Under the pieces are notes generated by a model that did no database searches, was not told the origin of the DNA, and saw nothing but the letters and a program-made list of their open reading frames with translations. 38,402 nucleotides of DNA, taken from positions 1-38,402 of the forward strand of contig CALCCA010000212.1 in the NCBI GenBank assembly GCA_937899725.1, written 5' to 3'. Positions 15,096-37,674 of this stretch are shown in pieces (the stretch's first letter is position 1; every line of letters starts with the position of its first letter). Made by a program: the position numbers and the translations under genes. Source of the DNA: an uncultured Halomicronema sp. (GTDB taxonomy: Bacteria > Cyanobacteriota > Cyanobacteriia > Phormidesmidales > Phormidesmidaceae).

Positions 15096-16604
15096 CTAGT
15101 GAACGATCGCCCCCAAGAGCGCTCGCCCTAGTCGATTAATCTGACGGGCAGCCTGAATGTGGGGCTCATCGGGCACGATGGGGATGATGGTGGCGGCTGC
15201 ACCGACCCCACACTGGGCGATCGCTGCATTAGCTGCCTCTAAGCCGGTGACATAGGCCTTCTCCTGCGACCAAGAGCCGTGGCGCGTCACAATCCAGTCG
15301 CCGCTCATAAAGACGTTGCTGAAGCTGGTCTGGCCCGGCAACAGATAGCGATAGCTGCCCGGAGCAAAGTGGCTGACGGCCTGCGGTAGACGAATCATGC
15401 TGTAATCAACAATGTGCGCTGCGCCAAACGCTGGTAAGCAGCCCGCCAGATCAGCCTGCACCAGGGGCAAAATCTCGGCGTCGCTGAGGGATAGGAACTG
15501 GTTGGCATGGTAGTAGTCCACCTCAATGACGGAGCCCGGCTCATCGCGGTATTCATCGTGCAGCGCGTTGAGATCAAAAAACGTCCAGCCGGTGGTTTGA
15601 TGAAAGCCAAAGCAGGCATTTGAAGGCAGCGGCACATCGATCTTGCGGTCAAACCACAGGCGAGTTGCCAGCACATCCACGGCACCCAGGTTTTGCACAT
15701 CACGAAACTCTGGGCGCTGACGCAGTGCGGGACTGCTCGCCACAATTTTTTTGAGGCCCGTGATGCCAACGGCAAAAATGACCGCATCCGCTTCAAACAC
15801 CTCATCGCCACAGACGACAGCGGTGAGGCGATCACCCTCTCCCTCTATCACGCCGGTGACGCGATGATTAGCCAAAATGCGGCCCCCTGCCTGCTCGATC
15901 GCTTGCGTCCAGGGGCGAAAGATTTGGGCCCCGACGGTGCCCCGACACCAGCGCACATCGAAGTCAGGCTGATGGGCCAAAATAAAGTAGTACAGCATGC
16001 CCAGAGTGGCCGCCGCCGAACATTGCTCCCCCGGTGCAAACAGCCCCACCAGCAGCATCGGCTCAAAGGCTTCTTTGTAGAGCCGTTCCGACACGCCAAA
16101 TTGGCGAAAGAGTTCGCGGGCGGAGAGGCGATCATACCGTCGCCAAGCCTCATCCGAATTGTCAAAATCCACCAGAGAGTACAGCAGGGGCAAAGCCGAG
16201 AGGCGATCGCTCAACGGCAACCGCTTGAACTCCGTATACAAAAAGGTGCCGAGGGGGCTGGGCAAATACGGCTGCAGTTGAAATAGCGGCGACTCGACCT
16301 CCAGCCCGTGGGGTGAATATTGATTTGAGCAGGTGTAGGGCGTAAACGGCTGCAGCCCTAAGGCATCGGTTAGCCCAAAGATATTGCGGTAGGGATACCA
16401 AAAGCCGTGAATGCCCGCCTCGACCGAGCGCCCCTGCTCGGTTTGCCAACCCGCCACCAACCCACCCGGATAGCTACCGGCTTCTAGCAGCGTCACGTCG
16501 TAGCCCTGCTGAGCGAGGTGATAGGCGGCCCCTAACCCAGCCCAGCCCGCTCCCACGATGACGACGCTCGGCGATTGTTTTTGCCCGTCCATACTTTCAT
16601 CCAT
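15096..16604 (-). CDS. FAD-dependent oxidoreductase, carotenoid (phytoene/zeta-carotene) desaturase-like
   Basis: A 502-residue flavoprotein of the amine-oxidase/phytoene-desaturase superfamily. The dinucleotide-binding fold is at residues 12-42 (VVIVGAGWAGLGAAYHL, then the acidic LLEAG). It is followed by YPGGLVAGW, a histidine-containing GIHGFWYPYRNIF segment, and near the C-terminus the second FAD contact VFMSGDWIVTRHGSWSQEKAYVTGLEAA. The arrangement is closest to CrtP/CrtQ-type plant and cyanobacterial desaturases, but the protein lacks enough specific signature to be named as either; many cyanobacteria carry such extra homologues of unknown substrate. It follows the YdjM-like gene by 63 bases on the same strand, so they may be co-transcribed. 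Confidence 0.86.
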   Translation of the reverse strand: MDESMDGQKQSPSVVIVGAGWAGLGAAYHLAQQGYDVTLLEAGSYPGGLVAGWQTEQGRSVEAGIHGFWYPYRNIFGLTDALGLQPFTPYTCSNQYSPHGLEVESPLFQLQPYLPSPLGTFLYTEFKRLPLSDRLSALPLLYSLVDFDNSDEAWRRYDRLSARELFRQFGVSERLYKEAFEPMLLVGLFAPGEQCSAAATLGMLYYFILAHQPDFDVRWCRGTVGAQIFRPWTQAIEQAGGRILANHRVTGVIEGEGDRLTAVVCGDEVFEADAVIFAVGITGLKKIVASSPALRQRPEFRDVQNLGAVDVLATRLWFDRKIDVPLPSNACFGFHQTTGWTFFDLNALHDEYRDEPGSVIEVDYYHANQFLSLSDAEILPLVQADLAGCLPAFGAAHIVDYSMIRLPQAVSHFAPGSYRYLLPGQTSFSNVFMSGDWIVTRHGSWSQEKAYVTGLEAANAAIAQCGVGAAATIIPIVPDEPHIQAARQINRLGRALLGAIVH

Positions 16605-29913: not shown

Positions 29914-31122
29914 TCAAATGGCTGCAGGCTGTCCGCTCGGGGCCTCTGACGTTTGCCAGTAGCGCACCATGGCATGGGCAAGGGTCGTGACGCCGACGGC
30001 GATCGCCGCCTCATTCACGGCGAACTTGGGATGATGCAGGGGATAGTTTGTCGCGTCAGCCGCCCCAATGCCCAAGCGAAACATGCTGCCGGGCGCGTAG
30101 TCGAGATAGACCGAAAAGTCTTCGGCCCCCAGGGAAGACTCATCAATTAACTGCACATGGTCATCGCCGCACACGTCTCTGGCACAGCGCTCTACCAGCT
30201 GCGTCAGAGACGGATCATTCAGCACCGCTGGCACACCGGGGCGATAGCTGATTTCATATTTGGCCCCAAAAGGTTCGCACATCCCCGCCACGATCGCCTC
30301 GATCCACTGAGGCAGCTCGCGGCGGGTGTCAGGATGCAGCGAGCGCACCGTGCCGGTCAGACGCACATGATCGGCAATGACATTGGGGGCGCGTCCGCCT
30401 TGAATCTGGCCAATTGTCAGCACAACCGGCCGCAATGGATTGTGAGTCCGGCTGATCGCCTGCTGCAGCGTGGTCACTACTTGCGCCGCAATCCAAATGG
30501 CATCGATCGCCTCATGGGGGCGCGCCCCGTGCCCGGATTCGCCAACGATATTGATTTCCAGATCATCTGCCGCCGCCGTCAGTGCACCGTAGCGAATGCC
30601 AATGTCACCCCCCAGCACCGAGGGGTAAACATGCACGCCCAAAATGGCGGCGACTCCAGTCATCACGTCATCGGCGACCATCCACCGCGCTCCCTGAGCC
30701 GTTTCTTCTGCTGGTTGAAAGATAAATCGGAGTGGCCCCGGCAGCGGCTCGCCCAGTTCCGCCAGCACCATGGCGACCCCTAAGCCCACCGTCGTATGTA
30801 CATCGTGGCCGCAGGCATGCATGACGCCGGGTTTTTGAGATACAAAGTCCAGAGGGGTTTTCTCTAGGATTGGTAAGGCATCCATATCAGTGCGGAGGGC
30901 TAAGTAGTCGGCTCGCTGTCCTTGCCCTGGCAAGTCAGCCACGACGCCGGTTTTGCCGACCAGTTCTTGGGTTTTGAGCCCACAGGAGGAAAGGACGCCC
31001 GCAATATAGGCAGCGGTTTGATATTCCTGACCACTGAGCTCGGGATGACTATGCAGATGACGGCGGATTTCGATCAGGCGAGGGGTGAGGCGGTCAGCGA
31101 TCGCGCGGATTCGGTCGAGCAT
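29914..31122 (-). CDS. M20-family amidohydrolase (amino-acid amide / hippurate hydrolase-like)
   Basis: A 402-residue metallo-amidohydrolase. It begins with IRRHLHSHPELSGQE, has ALRTDMDALP near 75-84, HACGHDVHTT (Cys104, His106, Asp107) at the metal site and FQPAEETAQGA (Glu139/Glu140) as the catalytic acid, followed by the dimerisation segment GESGHGARPHEAIDAI. The order is that of IAA-amino acid hydrolase, hippuricase and N-acetyl-diaminopimelate deacetylase types; the sequence alone does not give the substrate. The ATG is at 31122. It lies downstream of the gamma-glutamylcyclotransferase-like gene on the same strand (gap 221), so a shared role in amide or peptide salvage is possible but unproven. 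Confidence 0.9.
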   Translation of the reverse strand: MLDRIRAIADRLTPRLIEIRRHLHSHPELSGQEYQTAAYIAGVLSSCGLKTQELVGKTGVVADLPGQGQRADYLALRTDMDALPILEKTPLDFVSQKPGVMHACGHDVHTTVGLGVAMVLAELGEPLPGPLRFIFQPAEETAQGARWMVADDVMTGVAAILGVHVYPSVLGGDIGIRYGALTAAADDLEINIVGESGHGARPHEAIDAIWIAAQVVTTLQQAISRTHNPLRPVVLTIGQIQGGRAPNVIADHVRLTGTVRSLHPDTRRELPQWIEAIVAGMCEPFGAKYEISYRPGVPAVLNDPSLTQLVERCARDVCGDDHVQLIDESSLGAEDFSVYLDYAPGSMFRLGIGAADATNYPLHHPKFAVNEAAIAVGVTTLAHAMVRYWQTSEAPSGQPAAI

Positions 31123-31343
31123 TAAGGATCAAGATTGGAGTAAGCGTCTTTCTATCTTAGGGCGCGTTATTCATTCAGCACAGCAGCCTTTGAGACCGGC
31201 ATTACCGCACCCGCTCTACGCAATCAGGTCGCGTCATTCATTAGACACAGCACCTTCAAGCTGGGCTGCCCGGCTCTAGGGCTGAACTCGTCGTGTGCTC
31301 AGCGCTGGGCCTGGCCGCTGACCACCCCCAGCAAGTTCTGGCG

Positions 31344-31796
31344 TTAGCGTGCTTCACGGTCAACATCATCGGTGAGTTCCAGCGACGCCAGACTAGGCCA
31401 CTGTTGTCTGCTCCAATTACCTGAGGTCACCACCACCCCCCCCAGGGTGTGGATACGCTGTCGTTCCATCCAATAAACCCAGGCCGTCCCCCAGGGGTGT
31501 CGCGTGGGGGAAAATATCGACCATTGTTGTCTGACATAAAGGTTTTCGGTCGCCGAACGGCTGGGATCATAGTCTTCAAACTCATCAATGGCGGCGATCG
31601 CGCGATCATCCTGGAGCTGTAGTCGAAAACCTTGAATCCAGCGATCGCCCACCGTCAGCGCCGGATAGCCCTGCGGCAGATGAAACAGGTCACCTTGCAC
31701 TAGGGCGGGCTGGGCCGACACCACCTGCGGCTGACAATAGCGCCGGTATGCCGCTTCTCCCGGTTTAAGCGTGCCGTACACAAAAACAGTCACCAT
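31344..31796 (-). CDS. Gamma-glutamylcyclotransferase-like (GGCT) family protein
   Basis: A 150-residue protein with the family start VFVYGTLKPGEAAYRRYC, the central LPQGYPALTVG, and an acidic stretch AAIDEFEDYDP (about 68-78) where the catalytic glutamate is expected. Such enzymes form 5-oxoproline from gamma-glutamyl compounds; several small members have other or unknown substrates. The ATG is at 31796; no strong ribosome site is seen. It is divergent from the plus-strand small RNA unit that begins near 32070. Confidence 0.83.
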   Translation of the reverse strand: MVTVFVYGTLKPGEAAYRRYCQPQVVSAQPALVQGDLFHLPQGYPALTVGDRWIQGFRLQLQDDRAIAAIDEFEDYDPSRSATENLYVRQQWSIFSPTRHPWGTAWVYWMERQRIHTLGGVVVTSGNWSRQQWPSLASLELTDDVDREAR

Positions 31797-32069
31797 CTAT
31801 CGCGCTAGGCAAACAGCTATGGGTCGAAGTTACAGTCCCCGTCTTGAGTCTAAGCGCTTTGGGCTGAGAGCCCCAACTGCTACTGACATTGAACGCTAAA
31901 AATTCTCACAGTTAATCGAGAAACACCTGTACAACTCATGCGGCCAAACAGCCCCTCCACGACCAAGAACCCTCTCCAGGCAAATAATAGAGCTGAAAAG
32001 AGGCCTAAAAGCATGGAGCGTTGCCACTCACTGCGTCGCGAGCAAGACGGCAAATTTGCAAGCTGGTTA
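31797..32069. other. Spacer upstream of the small RNA unit
   Basis: No supported gene. A minus-strand frame at 31880-32086 is hydrophobic in part but has no family signature and overlaps the small RNA promoter, so it was left out. Confidence 0.35.
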
Positions 32070-32097
32070 TTGACATCAAATCGCAATAAACTACAAT
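32070..32097 (+). promoter_or_regulatory. Sigma-70-type promoter of the candidate small RNA
   Basis: TTGACA at 32070-32075, a 16-base spacer, and TACAAT at 32092-32097. This is one of the best consensus promoters in the window. Transcription would begin near 32103-32106. Confidence 0.65.
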
Positions 32098-32103
32098 GAG
32101 GGT

Positions 32104-32186
32104 CAACGTAGAGCGTTATACCGATGGGTATTCCTGTTCTCCTCTCAACAAAGGTCTAGGTGCTTCTTCGGAGGCACCTTTTTTTT
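32104..32186 (+). ncRNA. Candidate small regulatory RNA (~83 nt)
   Basis: A complete stand-alone unit with no coding frame. After the promoter the transcript would form a small hairpin ATACC-GATG-GGTAT (32118-32131). It then continues as an unpaired, CU-rich stretch containing TTCTCCTCTCAACA (CTCCTC at 32139-32144), and ends in a UUCG-capped terminator. Hairpin, unpaired anti-Shine-Dalgarno core and terminator is the plan of the cyanobacterial sRNA Yfr1, but the conserved Yfr1 motif ACUCCUCACAC is not intact here. It could be a diverged relative or an unrelated RNA. The first ten bases of the hairpin region share CGTTATACCGAT with the palindromic element at 2817-2923. Confidence 0.55.
32158..32186 (+). 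terminator. UUCG-capped intrinsic terminator
   Basis: AGGTGCTTC pairs with GAGGCACCT (one G-T pair) around a TTCG tetraloop and is followed by eight T at 32179-32186. No protein gene precedes it on this strand for over 2.9 kb, so it must end a non-coding transcript. Confidence 0.85.
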
Positions 32187-32567
32187 GGAATACTGTCGGC
32201 ATCAATCACACGGATCTTGGTCTGTTCCCCCTCGGATAAGTGCGCATTTCTGAAAAATTCGGGGAATAGTGTATGTGTGGTTTTGGTAAGGATCACTCAG
32301 GTATTGTGAAGCCCTGGAGCCAATACGGGCCAATTTTCCGTATTTATACGTAAATCAATTGTCTTAAATAATCTTTGCATGGTGTTGGTTGTCTGACCGT
32401 ATCCTTGCCCGATCCCCAGCCCCATTCGCCAGCCTTTGTGCAACGGCATGAACGCCCCTAGCCCCCCTTGTTGGATAGTTTTAGGCCGCCTAACTGTGAC
32501 GGTGAGACCCCTGCTGGCCCGGCCTGCCGAAGTCGTTAGGCGGCAATAACGCTCTGTTCCCGAGAAG
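32187..32567. other. Leader region of the histidine kinase gene
   Basis: About 380 bases. The only clear structure is an inverted repeat GCCGCCTAAC (32485-32494) / GTTAGGCGGC (32535-32544), ten perfect pairs around 40 bases, ending 24 bases before the kinase start. A shorter CGTAT/ATACG palindrome is at 32339-32350. Confidence 0.45.
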
Positions 32568-34853
32568 GTGATTCTCTGGAAGCAATTGTCTATTTGCGTC
32601 CCTCATCAGGTCTGGCTCTCGAATTTTCTGACCGTAAAACTGCTCTCTCCCTGTAGGCAAGTGACTGATACCTTAACCGCTACGTCGACTGTTCTTGACG
32701 CGATCGCTGACCCGGTTTTTATCACCGATGCCAAAGACGATTGGGTCTATGTCAACGCGGCCTGCTGCGATTTGCTGGGCTATCCCCCAGGGATTCTATT
32801 AGGTCAACAAAAGCCCGATCTGCTGACCAGTTCGGGTTTAGACATTCTCCGAGGGTTGCAGCAGCGAGCTTTAGCGACCCATGCCGTGCAAGAGCGAGAG
32901 ATTGCGCTGCGCAACGGACAAGATGAAGTCCGCATTTTGGCGGTCAAGATTAGCTTGTGGACTGACCAAAATCAGTCGGCTTTTCTAACTCACATCCTAC
33001 GAGACATTACCCAGCGCGTTGAGACCGAGCAGCGTCTTCAGCAAGAGTCACGGCGAGAGCGACTGTTGGGTGCGATCGCCAAGCACCTGCTGCATTCCAT
33101 GCGCCCGGCTAACCTGCTAGAGCGCAGCATGGAAGAGCTGCGCCGCTTTTTAGAGGCCGATCGGGTGCTGTTTTACAGCCTGCGTCCTGATCAATTAGGC
33201 GTCCTGGCCGAAGCCGTTGTGCCCGATCAGAACTCGCTCAAAGAGCTGCTGCTCGACGAGACCTGCTTTAACCCTGCTGAACTGAACCAATATCATCAAG
33301 GCCAGTTCAGCGCGGTTGAAGACGTTGAGAACTCTGATCTGCCCGAAGCCCAGCGTGTTTATCTCAAGGCCGTTAACGTCCAGTCGCAGATCACCATTCC
33401 CGTTGTTCAGGGCGACACGCTGTTGGGCCTGATCTGTGTGCATGACTGCCGTCATCCGCGCCCGTGGATGCAGTGGGAAATTGAGTCGCTGCAGGATGTG
33501 GCGACTCAGGTGGGGCGGGCGATCGCCCAAGCCGATCTCTATGCCCAAGTCCGACAGCTCAACGCCGAGTTAGAAACCCAGGTAGAGCAGCGCACCCGAC
33601 AGCTGCGGCAAGCGTTAGATTTTGAGGCCACGCTGAAACTCATTGCTGACCGCGTTCGCGACAGCTTAGATGAGTCGCAAATTTTGCAAACGGCGGTCGA
33701 AGAACTGACCGGGGTATTGGGGGCGAAGGGCTCGAACACAGCACTCTATGACTTAGAGCAGGGTACCTCAACGATTTACTACGAATACAATGAATCGCTG
33801 CCGCCCTATCAGGGCCGAGTGGCTCAGATGGAGGCCTTTCCTGAGGTTTATCACCAGCTATTAAACGGCCAGTATTTTCAATTTTGCTCGAAGGAACCGA
33901 ACCCGGTGCGGGGGCATGTGGCGATGTTTGCCTGCCCGATCCGCGACGATCGCGGCGTGTTGGGCGATCTCTGGCTGATTAATGAAAAAGACTATGGCTT
34001 TGCCGAACAGGAAATTCGGCTGGTGCAGCAGGTGGCTAACCAATGTGCGATCGCCATTCGGCAAGCCCGGTTGTATCAAGCAGCGCAAGCTCAAGTCAAA
34101 GAGTTAGAGCGGCTCAACCAGCTCAAAGACGACTTTTTGAGCACGGTTTCCCACGAGCTGCGCACCCCCGTGACCAGCATGCGAGTCGCGCTGCAGCTGT
34201 TGGGGGTCACCCTCAATCAAGAACTGGGCCTCAATGAAGAGCTGCAAAAACCGAAAACTAGCCAAAATCGGGTGGCTCGCTACTACGTGGTGTTGAAAGA
34301 AGAGTGTGAGCGAGAAATCAGTCTCATCAACGATCTCTTAGATTTGCAGCGGTTAGATGGCGGCAACCACCCCATCACCCCGCAGCGGATCAATTTGCAA
34401 AGCTGGCTCACCGGCATCGCCAATGGCTTTTATGAACGCGCCCAAAGCCGTGAGCAAGCCCTTTCAATCTTGCTGCCTGAGGACTTACCCCACATCATTA
34501 GTGACCAGGCCAGTTTGGAGCGGGTTTTTGCTGAGCTGCTGAACAACGCCTGCAAATACACCCCCCCCGGTGAAACAATTTCCGTGTCAGCGATCGCTCA
34601 ATCCAACGACCAGTTGCTAGTCACTATCGCCAACTCAGGGGTCGAAATTCCGGAGGCGGAGATACCACGCATTTTCGACAAGTTTTATCGAGTGCCCAGT
34701 TCTGATCCTTGGAAACAGGGGGGGACGGGACTGGGCTTAGCTTTGGTGCAAAAACTGCTGTGGCACATCGGCGGGCAAATCGCAGTCACCAGCAAATCTT
34801 CCCAAACGGCCTTCAACATTACCCTGCCCATCAACATTAACTTGGCGATTTAA
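32568..34853 (+). CDS. PAS-GAF-GAF sensor histidine kinase
   Basis: A 761-residue soluble sensor kinase. A PAS domain (about 42-148, ADPVFITDAKDDWVYVNAACCDLLGY), a phytochrome-like GAF domain (about 165-322, GLICVHDCRHPRPW), a coiled coil (about 325-350, LNAELETQVEQRTRQL) and a second GAF (about 352-502) lead into the kinase core. The phospho-acceptor is His529 in FLSTVSHELRTP. The N-box is ELLNNACKYTPPGE and the G2 box GGTGLGLALVQKL. The G1 box has ANSG in place of DNG, a common cyanobacterial variant. The first GAF has the PRPW feature of bilin-type domains but no CH cysteine for bilin attachment. No response regulator is adjacent. The start may be GTG 32568 or GTG 32661, which would remove 31 unconserved residues. 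Confidence 0.92.
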   Translation: MILWKQLSICVPHQVWLSNFLTVKLLSPCRQVTDTLTATSTVLDAIADPVFITDAKDDWVYVNAACCDLLGYPPGILLGQQKPDLLTSSGLDILRGLQQRALATHAVQEREIALRNGQDEVRILAVKISLWTDQNQSAFLTHILRDITQRVETEQRLQQESRRERLLGAIAKHLLHSMRPANLLERSMEELRRFLEADRVLFYSLRPDQLGVLAEAVVPDQNSLKELLLDETCFNPAELNQYHQGQFSAVEDVENSDLPEAQRVYLKAVNVQSQITIPVVQGDTLLGLICVHDCRHPRPWMQWEIESLQDVATQVGRAIAQADLYAQVRQLNAELETQVEQRTRQLRQALDFEATLKLIADRVRDSLDESQILQTAVEELTGVLGAKGSNTALYDLEQGTSTIYYEYNESLPPYQGRVAQMEAFPEVYHQLLNGQYFQFCSKEPNPVRGHVAMFACPIRDDRGVLGDLWLINEKDYGFAEQEIRLVQQVANQCAIAIRQARLYQAAQAQVKELERLNQLKDDFLSTVSHELRTPVTSMRVALQLLGVTLNQELGLNEELQKPKTSQNRVARYYVVLKEECEREISLINDLLDLQRLDGGNHPITPQRINLQSWLTGIANGFYERAQSREQALSILLPEDLPHIISDQASLERVFAELLNNACKYTPPGETISVSAIAQSNDQLLVTIANSGVEIPEAEIPRIFDKFYRVPSSDPWKQGGTGLGLALVQKLLWHIGGQIAVTSKSSQTAFNITLPININLAI

Positions 34854-37341: not shown

Positions 37342-37674
37342 CTAAAGCAAGGTATTAATTTTGTCCGCGATCGCGCCTTGGGCTATGACGCCTTCAGTAC
37401 GCTCGACCAGACTGCCATCTTTAAAGAAGAGCAGGGTCGGCACACCCATAATGTGATACTGACTGGCGAGCTCCTCATGATCGTCAATATTAATCTTGGC
37501 TAATTTGGCCTTGCCGGCAAAATCTGCTGCCAATCCATCAATAATCGGATTCATCAGCTTGCAAGGGCCGCACCACGCCGCCCAAAAATCGACCACGACT
37601 GGCACATCACTTTGGAGGACTTCACCGGCAAAATTTTCATCGGTCAGCGTGACATATGTAGCTGTATCGGCCAT
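37342..37674 (-). CDS. trxA: Thioredoxin
   Basis: A 110-residue m-type thioredoxin. The active site WCGPC has Cys35 and Cys38, the cis-proline is Pro79 in MGVPTLLFF, and DFWAAWCGPCKLM and IDDHEELASQYHI complete the fold. It reduces disulfides of metabolic enzymes and supplies electrons to MsrB and peroxiredoxins, both of which are encoded in this window. The ATG has a GAGGAG site about nine bases upstream (mRNA sense). No partner gene is adjacent. Confidence 0.96.
   Translation of the reverse strand: MADTATYVTLTDENFAGEVLQSDVPVVVDFWAAWCGPCKLMNPIIDGLAADFAGKAKLAKINIDDHEELASQYHIMGVPTLLFFKDGSLVERTEGVIAQGAIADKINTLL

Follow-up and report, generated by a model that had tools for sequence, protein, structure and literature searches.

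Among the small regulatory RNAs described from cyanobacteria, the closest counterparts of the locus studied here are IsaR1 and Yfr1. IsaR1 (iron-stress activated RNA 1) of Synechocystis sp. PCC 6803, reportedly described by Georg and colleagues in 2017, is strongly induced by iron starvation. Yfr1 is built of two stem-loops with 16-20 unpaired nt between them, and often adjoins trxA in other cyanobacteria, where its usual though not obligatory place is between guaB and trxA. RyhB of enterobacteria, an RNA under Fur repression that itself represses proteins using iron, serves here as an analogy only, and no sequence or structural relationship with it is claimed. Flavodoxin, TonB receptors and AraC regulators form the usual iron-starvation gene set. 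IsaR1 has a length of 68 nt and is conserved across cyanobacteria (PMC6202907), is cited as an instance of sRNA release from a promoter under FurA control (PMC12090762), and acts on Fed1, PetJ, SufBCDS, SodB, PetABDC1, AcnB, HemA and ChlN (PMC8136909). A study of Trichodesmium suspects that an sRNA of this kind may be lacking in that organism (PMC12090762). SodB mRNA is named as a RyhB target (PMC7154689), and ACUCCUCACAC as the Yfr1 motif (PMC2190773).

Here we analysed a window of 38,402 nt from an uncultured Halomicronema sp. (contig C212 of genome G000, which is the own genome in all counts below), and find that the locus at 32070-32186 is a real small-RNA gene of this filamentous cyanobacterium. 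With a probability that we put at about 0.86, it is an orthologue of IsaR1, that is, a Fur-repressed, iron-sparing sRNA, here with an extra 5' hairpin; we infer the name from the features of the gene. The likeness lies in described features of IsaR1: a Fur-type dyad on the promoter (a motif match, with 7 of the 22 sites read lying at iron-starvation-type genes), computed pairing at 6/6 petF1 (Fed1) and 3/3 sodB ribosome sites, wide cyanobacterial occurrence (71 of 388 class genomes, probable chance matches included) and a short, separately encoded RNA closed by a terminator. The two would differ in length, 82 nt being predicted here as against 68 nt, owing to the 5' hairpin of the window's family.

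Anatomy and conservation of the gene

The initial annotation had described a stand-alone small-RNA gene in which a near-consensus promoter is followed by a 5' hairpin and a UUCG-capped terminator with eight T, no reading frame lying between them, and each of these elements was recovered (Table 1). The -35 box TTGACA (32070-32075) and the -10 box TACAAT (32092-32097), separated by a 16-nt spacer, agree with the consensus at 11 of 12 positions, and this promoter is the top scorer of three promoter-like sites in the scanned interval 30000-34500. The 5' hairpin is upheld by the comparative structure of 32105-32138 together with pair changes. The terminator stem reads AGGTGCTTC-TTCG-GAGGCACCT (32158-32179), and the eight T occupy 32179-32186. 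No reading frame is contained entirely between promoter and terminator; an ATG frame of 47 aa (32096-32239) overlaps the sRNA from upstream, its start preceding the expected start of transcription. Folding of 32104-32187 gave -26.8 kcal/mol (z -3.16), an energy equalled by 1 of 200 shuffles, and the locus was found once in its own genome, both by DNA search and by a search for the exact core with a T-run.

Table 1. Features of the small-RNA locus, with positions in the window.
Feature	Position	Strand	Basis or remark
Fur-box-like dyad TTATTGA-N9-(T/G)CAATAA	32067..32089	+	over -35 box and spacer (repressor position)
Sigma-70-type promoter TTGACA-16-TACAAT	32070..32097	+	11/12 consensus matches; aligned TTGACA invariant in 7/7 sequences (eight DNA matches found, L010 of G041 left out)
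Predicted sRNA, about 82 nt	32105..32186	+	end-to-end match of model R1, 87.1 bits, the window sequence itself being among the six used for building R1; start placed by the -10 box and end by the T-run
5' hairpin (AAC...GUU closing helix and inner stem)	32105..32138	+	comparative structure, pair changes, dyad-core spacing
Conserved core TGTTCTCCTCTCAAC, presumed mRNA-pairing seed	32135..32149	+	invariance in family, class-wide pattern
UUCG-capped intrinsic terminator, eight T	32158..32186	+	sequence; 7/9 stem pairs changed on both sides (11 distinct sequences)

An anti-Shine-Dalgarno core had also been claimed, and is present as CTCCTCTC, the most conserved part of the sRNA. The further claim that this core is unpaired stands in part: in the comparative structure, where 19 nt separate the two helices, CUCCUCUCAAC and the linker are open but the core GUU closes the 5' stem, and in the single-sequence fold of the own RNA UGUUCU plus one more C is paired.

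The DNA of the sRNA was matched in all six genomes of the genus, own included, and a covariance model of the transcript found matches in 15 of 63 family genomes; leaving out L022, L028 and L029, which have no core, gives 12 homologues, namely those of the six genus genomes and of G058, G046-G049 and G009. An order-wide search returned the same result as the family search and nothing further. TGTTCTCCTCTCA (13 bases) is invariant in all 12 homologues. Their stems have changed on both sides at 13 of 20 pairs, with 95.7% of cells pairing and a covariation score reached by none of 500 shuffles, in an alignment that was fitted to the structure and hence is biased towards it. An independent MAFFT alignment of six sequences, tested with a structure derived from the same six, has 96.7% of cells pairing and two-sided changes at three pairs, and was equalled by 1 of 500 shuffles.

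Neighbouring genes were read in G000, G002, G003, G004 and G058. Downstream of the sRNA in G000, and also in G002 and G003, a histidine kinase gene is found (32568-34853 in the window), whereas G004 and G058 have different neighbours and yet retain promoter, core and terminator, so that the sRNA is a gene of its own and not a leader. Conservation of 32070-32186 in relatives therefore extends to promoter, core and terminator alike, which bears out the stand-alone gene.

The promoter dyad and the class-wide form

All 12 family homologues carry the dyad over the promoter, with 0-2 mismatches; in G047 it is altered in both halves, to TTGTTGA...TCAACAA. Searching the six genus genomes for TTATTGA-N9-TCAATAA with at most one mismatch gave 46 sites, as against one site for the reversed control. 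We read 22 of the 46 (20 stretches), namely the 12 that the own genome has besides that of the sRNA, and 10 out of 33 from relatives, and at seven of these 22 a gene of iron-starvation type starts within 450 bases: a TonB-receptor plug protein at L077 (by Pfam) and at L085 and L089 (by likeness), an AraC-type regulator at L076 and L083, and flavodoxin at L086 and L091. The other 15 sites read are without a clear iron gene, six having no candidate frame and the rest small, doubtful or other frames; at L080, a short frame was taken as an IsiA-like N-terminus, with no Pfam confirmation. Because sites of this kind precede flavodoxin, TonB-receptor and AraC-regulator genes, we read the promoter dyad as a putative Fur box. 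Repression would fit, since the dyad covers the -35 box.

A further covariance model, based on the 12 homologues, matched 41 of 388 class genomes at E 0.01; several weak matches among them have no core (e.g. L039, L044 and L053) and were not taken as homologues. The pattern GTTCTCCTCTCA, followed by 20-50 bases and TTTTT, occurs in 71 of the 388 genomes, including probable chance matches (e.g. L094, L102 and those of G383, G314, G090 and G052), against four genomes with the reversed pattern; the exact-core form was absent from many families within the 388 class genomes searched. In the 36 class-wide upstream regions (43 loci minus repeats and loci without an exact core), a dyad of 0-3 mismatches was found in 32, shuffled regions having mostly 5-7 mismatches, and the remaining four, at L038, L043, L094 and L102, stand at four mismatches or more.

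The common short form of this RNA is GTGTTCTCCTCTCAAAGGATCGGCAGGTGGGG, followed by the terminator; it would be about 65 nt long by a hand estimate from promoter and terminator positions, and leaves no room for a 5' hairpin. The best dyad starts 41-46 nt ahead of GTTCTCC in 19 of the 36 class-wide upstream regions, the other 17 having their best dyad further upstream or none that convinces, while in the 12 family homologues it starts 63-78 nt ahead of TGTTCTCC. Because the distance from dyad to core is greater in the window's family, its leader would be roughly 20-35 nt longer than that of the short form, and would be folded into the 5' hairpin.

The full promoter-plus-core pattern was found in seven named records, including Leptolyngbya sp. 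PCC 6406, Halomicronema sp. CCY15110 and Oscillatoria sp. CS-180, very near records possibly being omitted from that number. At several loci of the short form (L041, L042, L095-L097, L099 and L110) the best Fur-box-like dyad lies about 64 nt ahead of the core, and some of them seem to carry a second dyad over the -35 box.

Predicted targets

Ferredoxins were examined because Fed1 is an assigned target of IsaR1 (PMC8136909). In 6/6 genus genomes petF1, the gene of the major ferredoxin, has a ribosome site complementary to the core, with pairing energies of -19.5 to -25.9 kcal/mol; these, like all pairing energies given here, ignore intramolecular folding of either RNA, and starts were picked by script. 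Twenty other ferredoxin-type starts gave -2.3 to -14.9 kcal/mol, the scoring covering 26 of 35 rows, with the core and linker of the window set against every genome and the best-pairing ATG taken where there were several. The petF1 ribosome sites (one gene per genome) are UUUGUUGAGAGGA in G001, G003 and G004, UUUGUCGAGAGGA in G002, and UUUGUUAAGAGGA in G000 and G005. The site of the own genome has one seed mismatch and pairs at -19.5 kcal/mol, an energy matched by 4 of 1000 shuffled cores. This is stronger, by a margin of 1 kcal/mol, than all 80 other gene starts (best -18.5, mean -7.9, s.d. 3.5), which were drawn from part of the own genome (the window and fetched loci), each gene being defined by its longest ATG frame, with a minimum of 120 aa. 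The ribosome site of sodB pairs at -18.5 to -20.9 kcal/mol in all three genomes with SodB; a search of the own genome at E 1e-20 found no SodB homologue.

The initial annotation had singled out trxA as a match, on account of a GAGGAGA ahead of its minus-strand start at 37674. This gene (37342-37674, minus strand) lies 5 kb from the sRNA with other genes between, and its site pairs at only -13.3 kcal/mol as against -19.5 kcal/mol for petF1, which puts it within the ten or so strongest starts but well short of petF1; as main target it was set aside.

With no gene preset, a search for TGAGAGGAG 2-14 bases ahead of an ATG gave 47 rows from the six genomes, about twice the frequency of the control (23 rows). 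We read 46 of the 47, the omitted row being the antisense strand of the sRNA itself, and in 23 of them (22 places) a frame of at least 60 aa begins at the site. For ten such proteins Pfam returned FeThRed_A, Rieske, Fe/Mn SOD, complex-I 51K type, imelysin, phycobilisome, GDT1, none, DsbA-like and TauE. Many of the genes with TGAGAGGAG are unrelated to iron, as are for example those of GDT1 and TauE, and none of the five matches of the own genome lies at an iron gene. The search did bring up ftrV (three genomes), a Rieske protein (two genomes), sodB and a HoxF/NuoF-like gene, the ftrV genes at L143 and L163 and the Rieske gene at L153 being assigned by likeness. The core complements at least nine bases at the ribosome sites of ftrV (L123, L143, L163), of the Rieske gene (L124, L153) and of the HoxF/NuoF-like gene (L158), all in G001-G004, and these three we regard as candidate new targets.

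Identity and variation of the RNA

A search of the whole window against Rfam at gathering threshold gave no match. With E relaxed to 10 over 31950-32300, four chance-level hits appeared (suhB/mmgR at 14.1 bits, MIR171_1, ctRNA_p42d and ZFAT-AS1_1), RF01116 not among them. Eight sRNA-bearing loci (L041, L042, L046, L095, L099, L112, L025 and L009) gave tRNA only with Rfam 15, and the control L014 gave Yfr1. The comparison with known sRNA models that the initial annotation had proposed gave neither Yfr1 nor, beyond the chance-level hits, any other Rfam family at the locus, while the Yfr1 model does match L014 (52.8 bits). NsiR4 was also considered, by its description in PMC9196836 alone, and dropped. 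A literature search with pieces of the core found no cyanobacterial paper. When IsaR1 was looked up by position, five of ten candidate genomes lacked the stretch and the other five yielded one without the core.

The likeness to Yfr1 in layout, also remarked on in the initial annotation, is confirmed, as both RNAs consist of a hairpin, an open linker with a CUCCUC core (19 nt here) and a terminator hairpin. The sRNA looks like Yfr1 because the longer leader of its family folds into a 5' hairpin. This layout, with its two stem-loops and with CUCCUC in an unpaired linker of about 19 nt, is also what speaks for a divergent copy of Yfr1 (or a Yfr10-like one) that would work by way of a changed CUCCUC motif, a reading that we consider very improbable and largely refuted. 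The own genome has a canonical Yfr1 elsewhere, with the exact motif and 52.8 bits for RF01116 (L014 1479-1543, that is G000:C137, about 15537-15601), while RF01116 is absent from the sRNA locus up to E 10. The core is CUCCUCUCAAC here as against ACUCCUCACAC in Yfr1, differing at fixed positions and being invariant in its own family; allowing one mismatch, ACTCCTCAC has three matches in the window and none at the locus. Nor does the sRNA lie between guaB and trxA, the latter being 5 kb off, and its class-wide form lacks the 5' hairpin. A Yfr1 motif near trxA was also looked for, and none turned up in the window. Its promoter is of iron type, the dyad linking it to iron-type genes. The motif is therefore better described as the fixed core of a separate family with a Fur-box-like promoter than as an altered Yfr1 motif.

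Promoter and terminator signals seen in a single genome can arise by chance, and the kinase gene follows the sRNA in G002 and G003 too, as would be expected if there were no functional sRNA here, promoter and terminator being fortuitous or part of a leader or attenuator ahead of the histidine kinase gene. The invariant core, the compensatory stem changes and the promoter kept where neighbours differ largely refute this, and we give it hardly any credence. Less easily dismissed, though still unlikely, is a Fur-controlled iron-starvation sRNA of a second family that is not IsaR1, such as one related to NC-1321, an RNA of ~80 nt induced by iron starvation in Synechocystis. Several sRNAs of Synechocystis are iron-induced, NC-181 (~70 nt) and NC-1321 (~80 nt) sharing kinetics (PMC3516471), and identity with IsaR1 is judged here by features of the gene; yet the best computed targets, petF1 and sodB, are among those assigned to IsaR1, the class-wide short form is of about IsaR1 length (hand estimate), and the own genome yielded just one exact-core locus with a T-run. 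Slightly more doubtful still is that the sRNA, together with its relatives across the class, represents a hitherto undescribed second iron-sparing sRNA under Fur control that shares targets such as ferredoxin with IsaR1.

As an IsaR1 orthologue, the sRNA would be kept silent under iron sufficiency by Fur bound to the dyad over the -35 box and spacer, which would block transcription. When iron becomes scarce, Fur would leave, and a trans-acting sRNA of ~82 nt would be made, the CUCCUCUCAAC core of which would pair with GUUGAGAGGA-type ribosome sites of iron-protein mRNAs, first that of petF1 and, in relatives, those of sodB, ftrV and Rieske genes. Translation of the targets would thereby be blocked and iron spared. 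Under iron shortage, then, production of ferredoxin and other proteins costly in iron is very probably shut down by the sRNA; the analysis shows the anatomy of the gene, its conservation and covariation, a dyad in common with several iron-starvation-type genes and computed complementarity at petF1 and sodB sites, and we infer expression, the binding of Fur and the repression of targets. The locus would place an iron-sparing sRNA in the Halomicronema/Leptolyngbya lineage, where Rfam 15 gives no match, with the petF1 pairing kept across the genus, and suggests that such an sRNA can gain an entire 5' hairpin without any change to its core. The covariance models built here would allow the sRNA to be widely annotated.

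The RNA also varies in its presence among genera. Exact-core copies are absent from the listed genomes of the sister genera g6 and g7, and g10 has one doubtful match (G052), so that in these three genera the sRNA may have been lost or its core altered. In genus g110, G256 has one exact-core copy and G273 and G285 have none, while the other four of the seven listed genomes (G232, G238, G261 and G267) carry two copies each, with the linkers GAGACATGGCAAGG and GAGGATTCGGCAGG, which points to a duplication of the iron sRNA, whose copies may have divided its roles between them.
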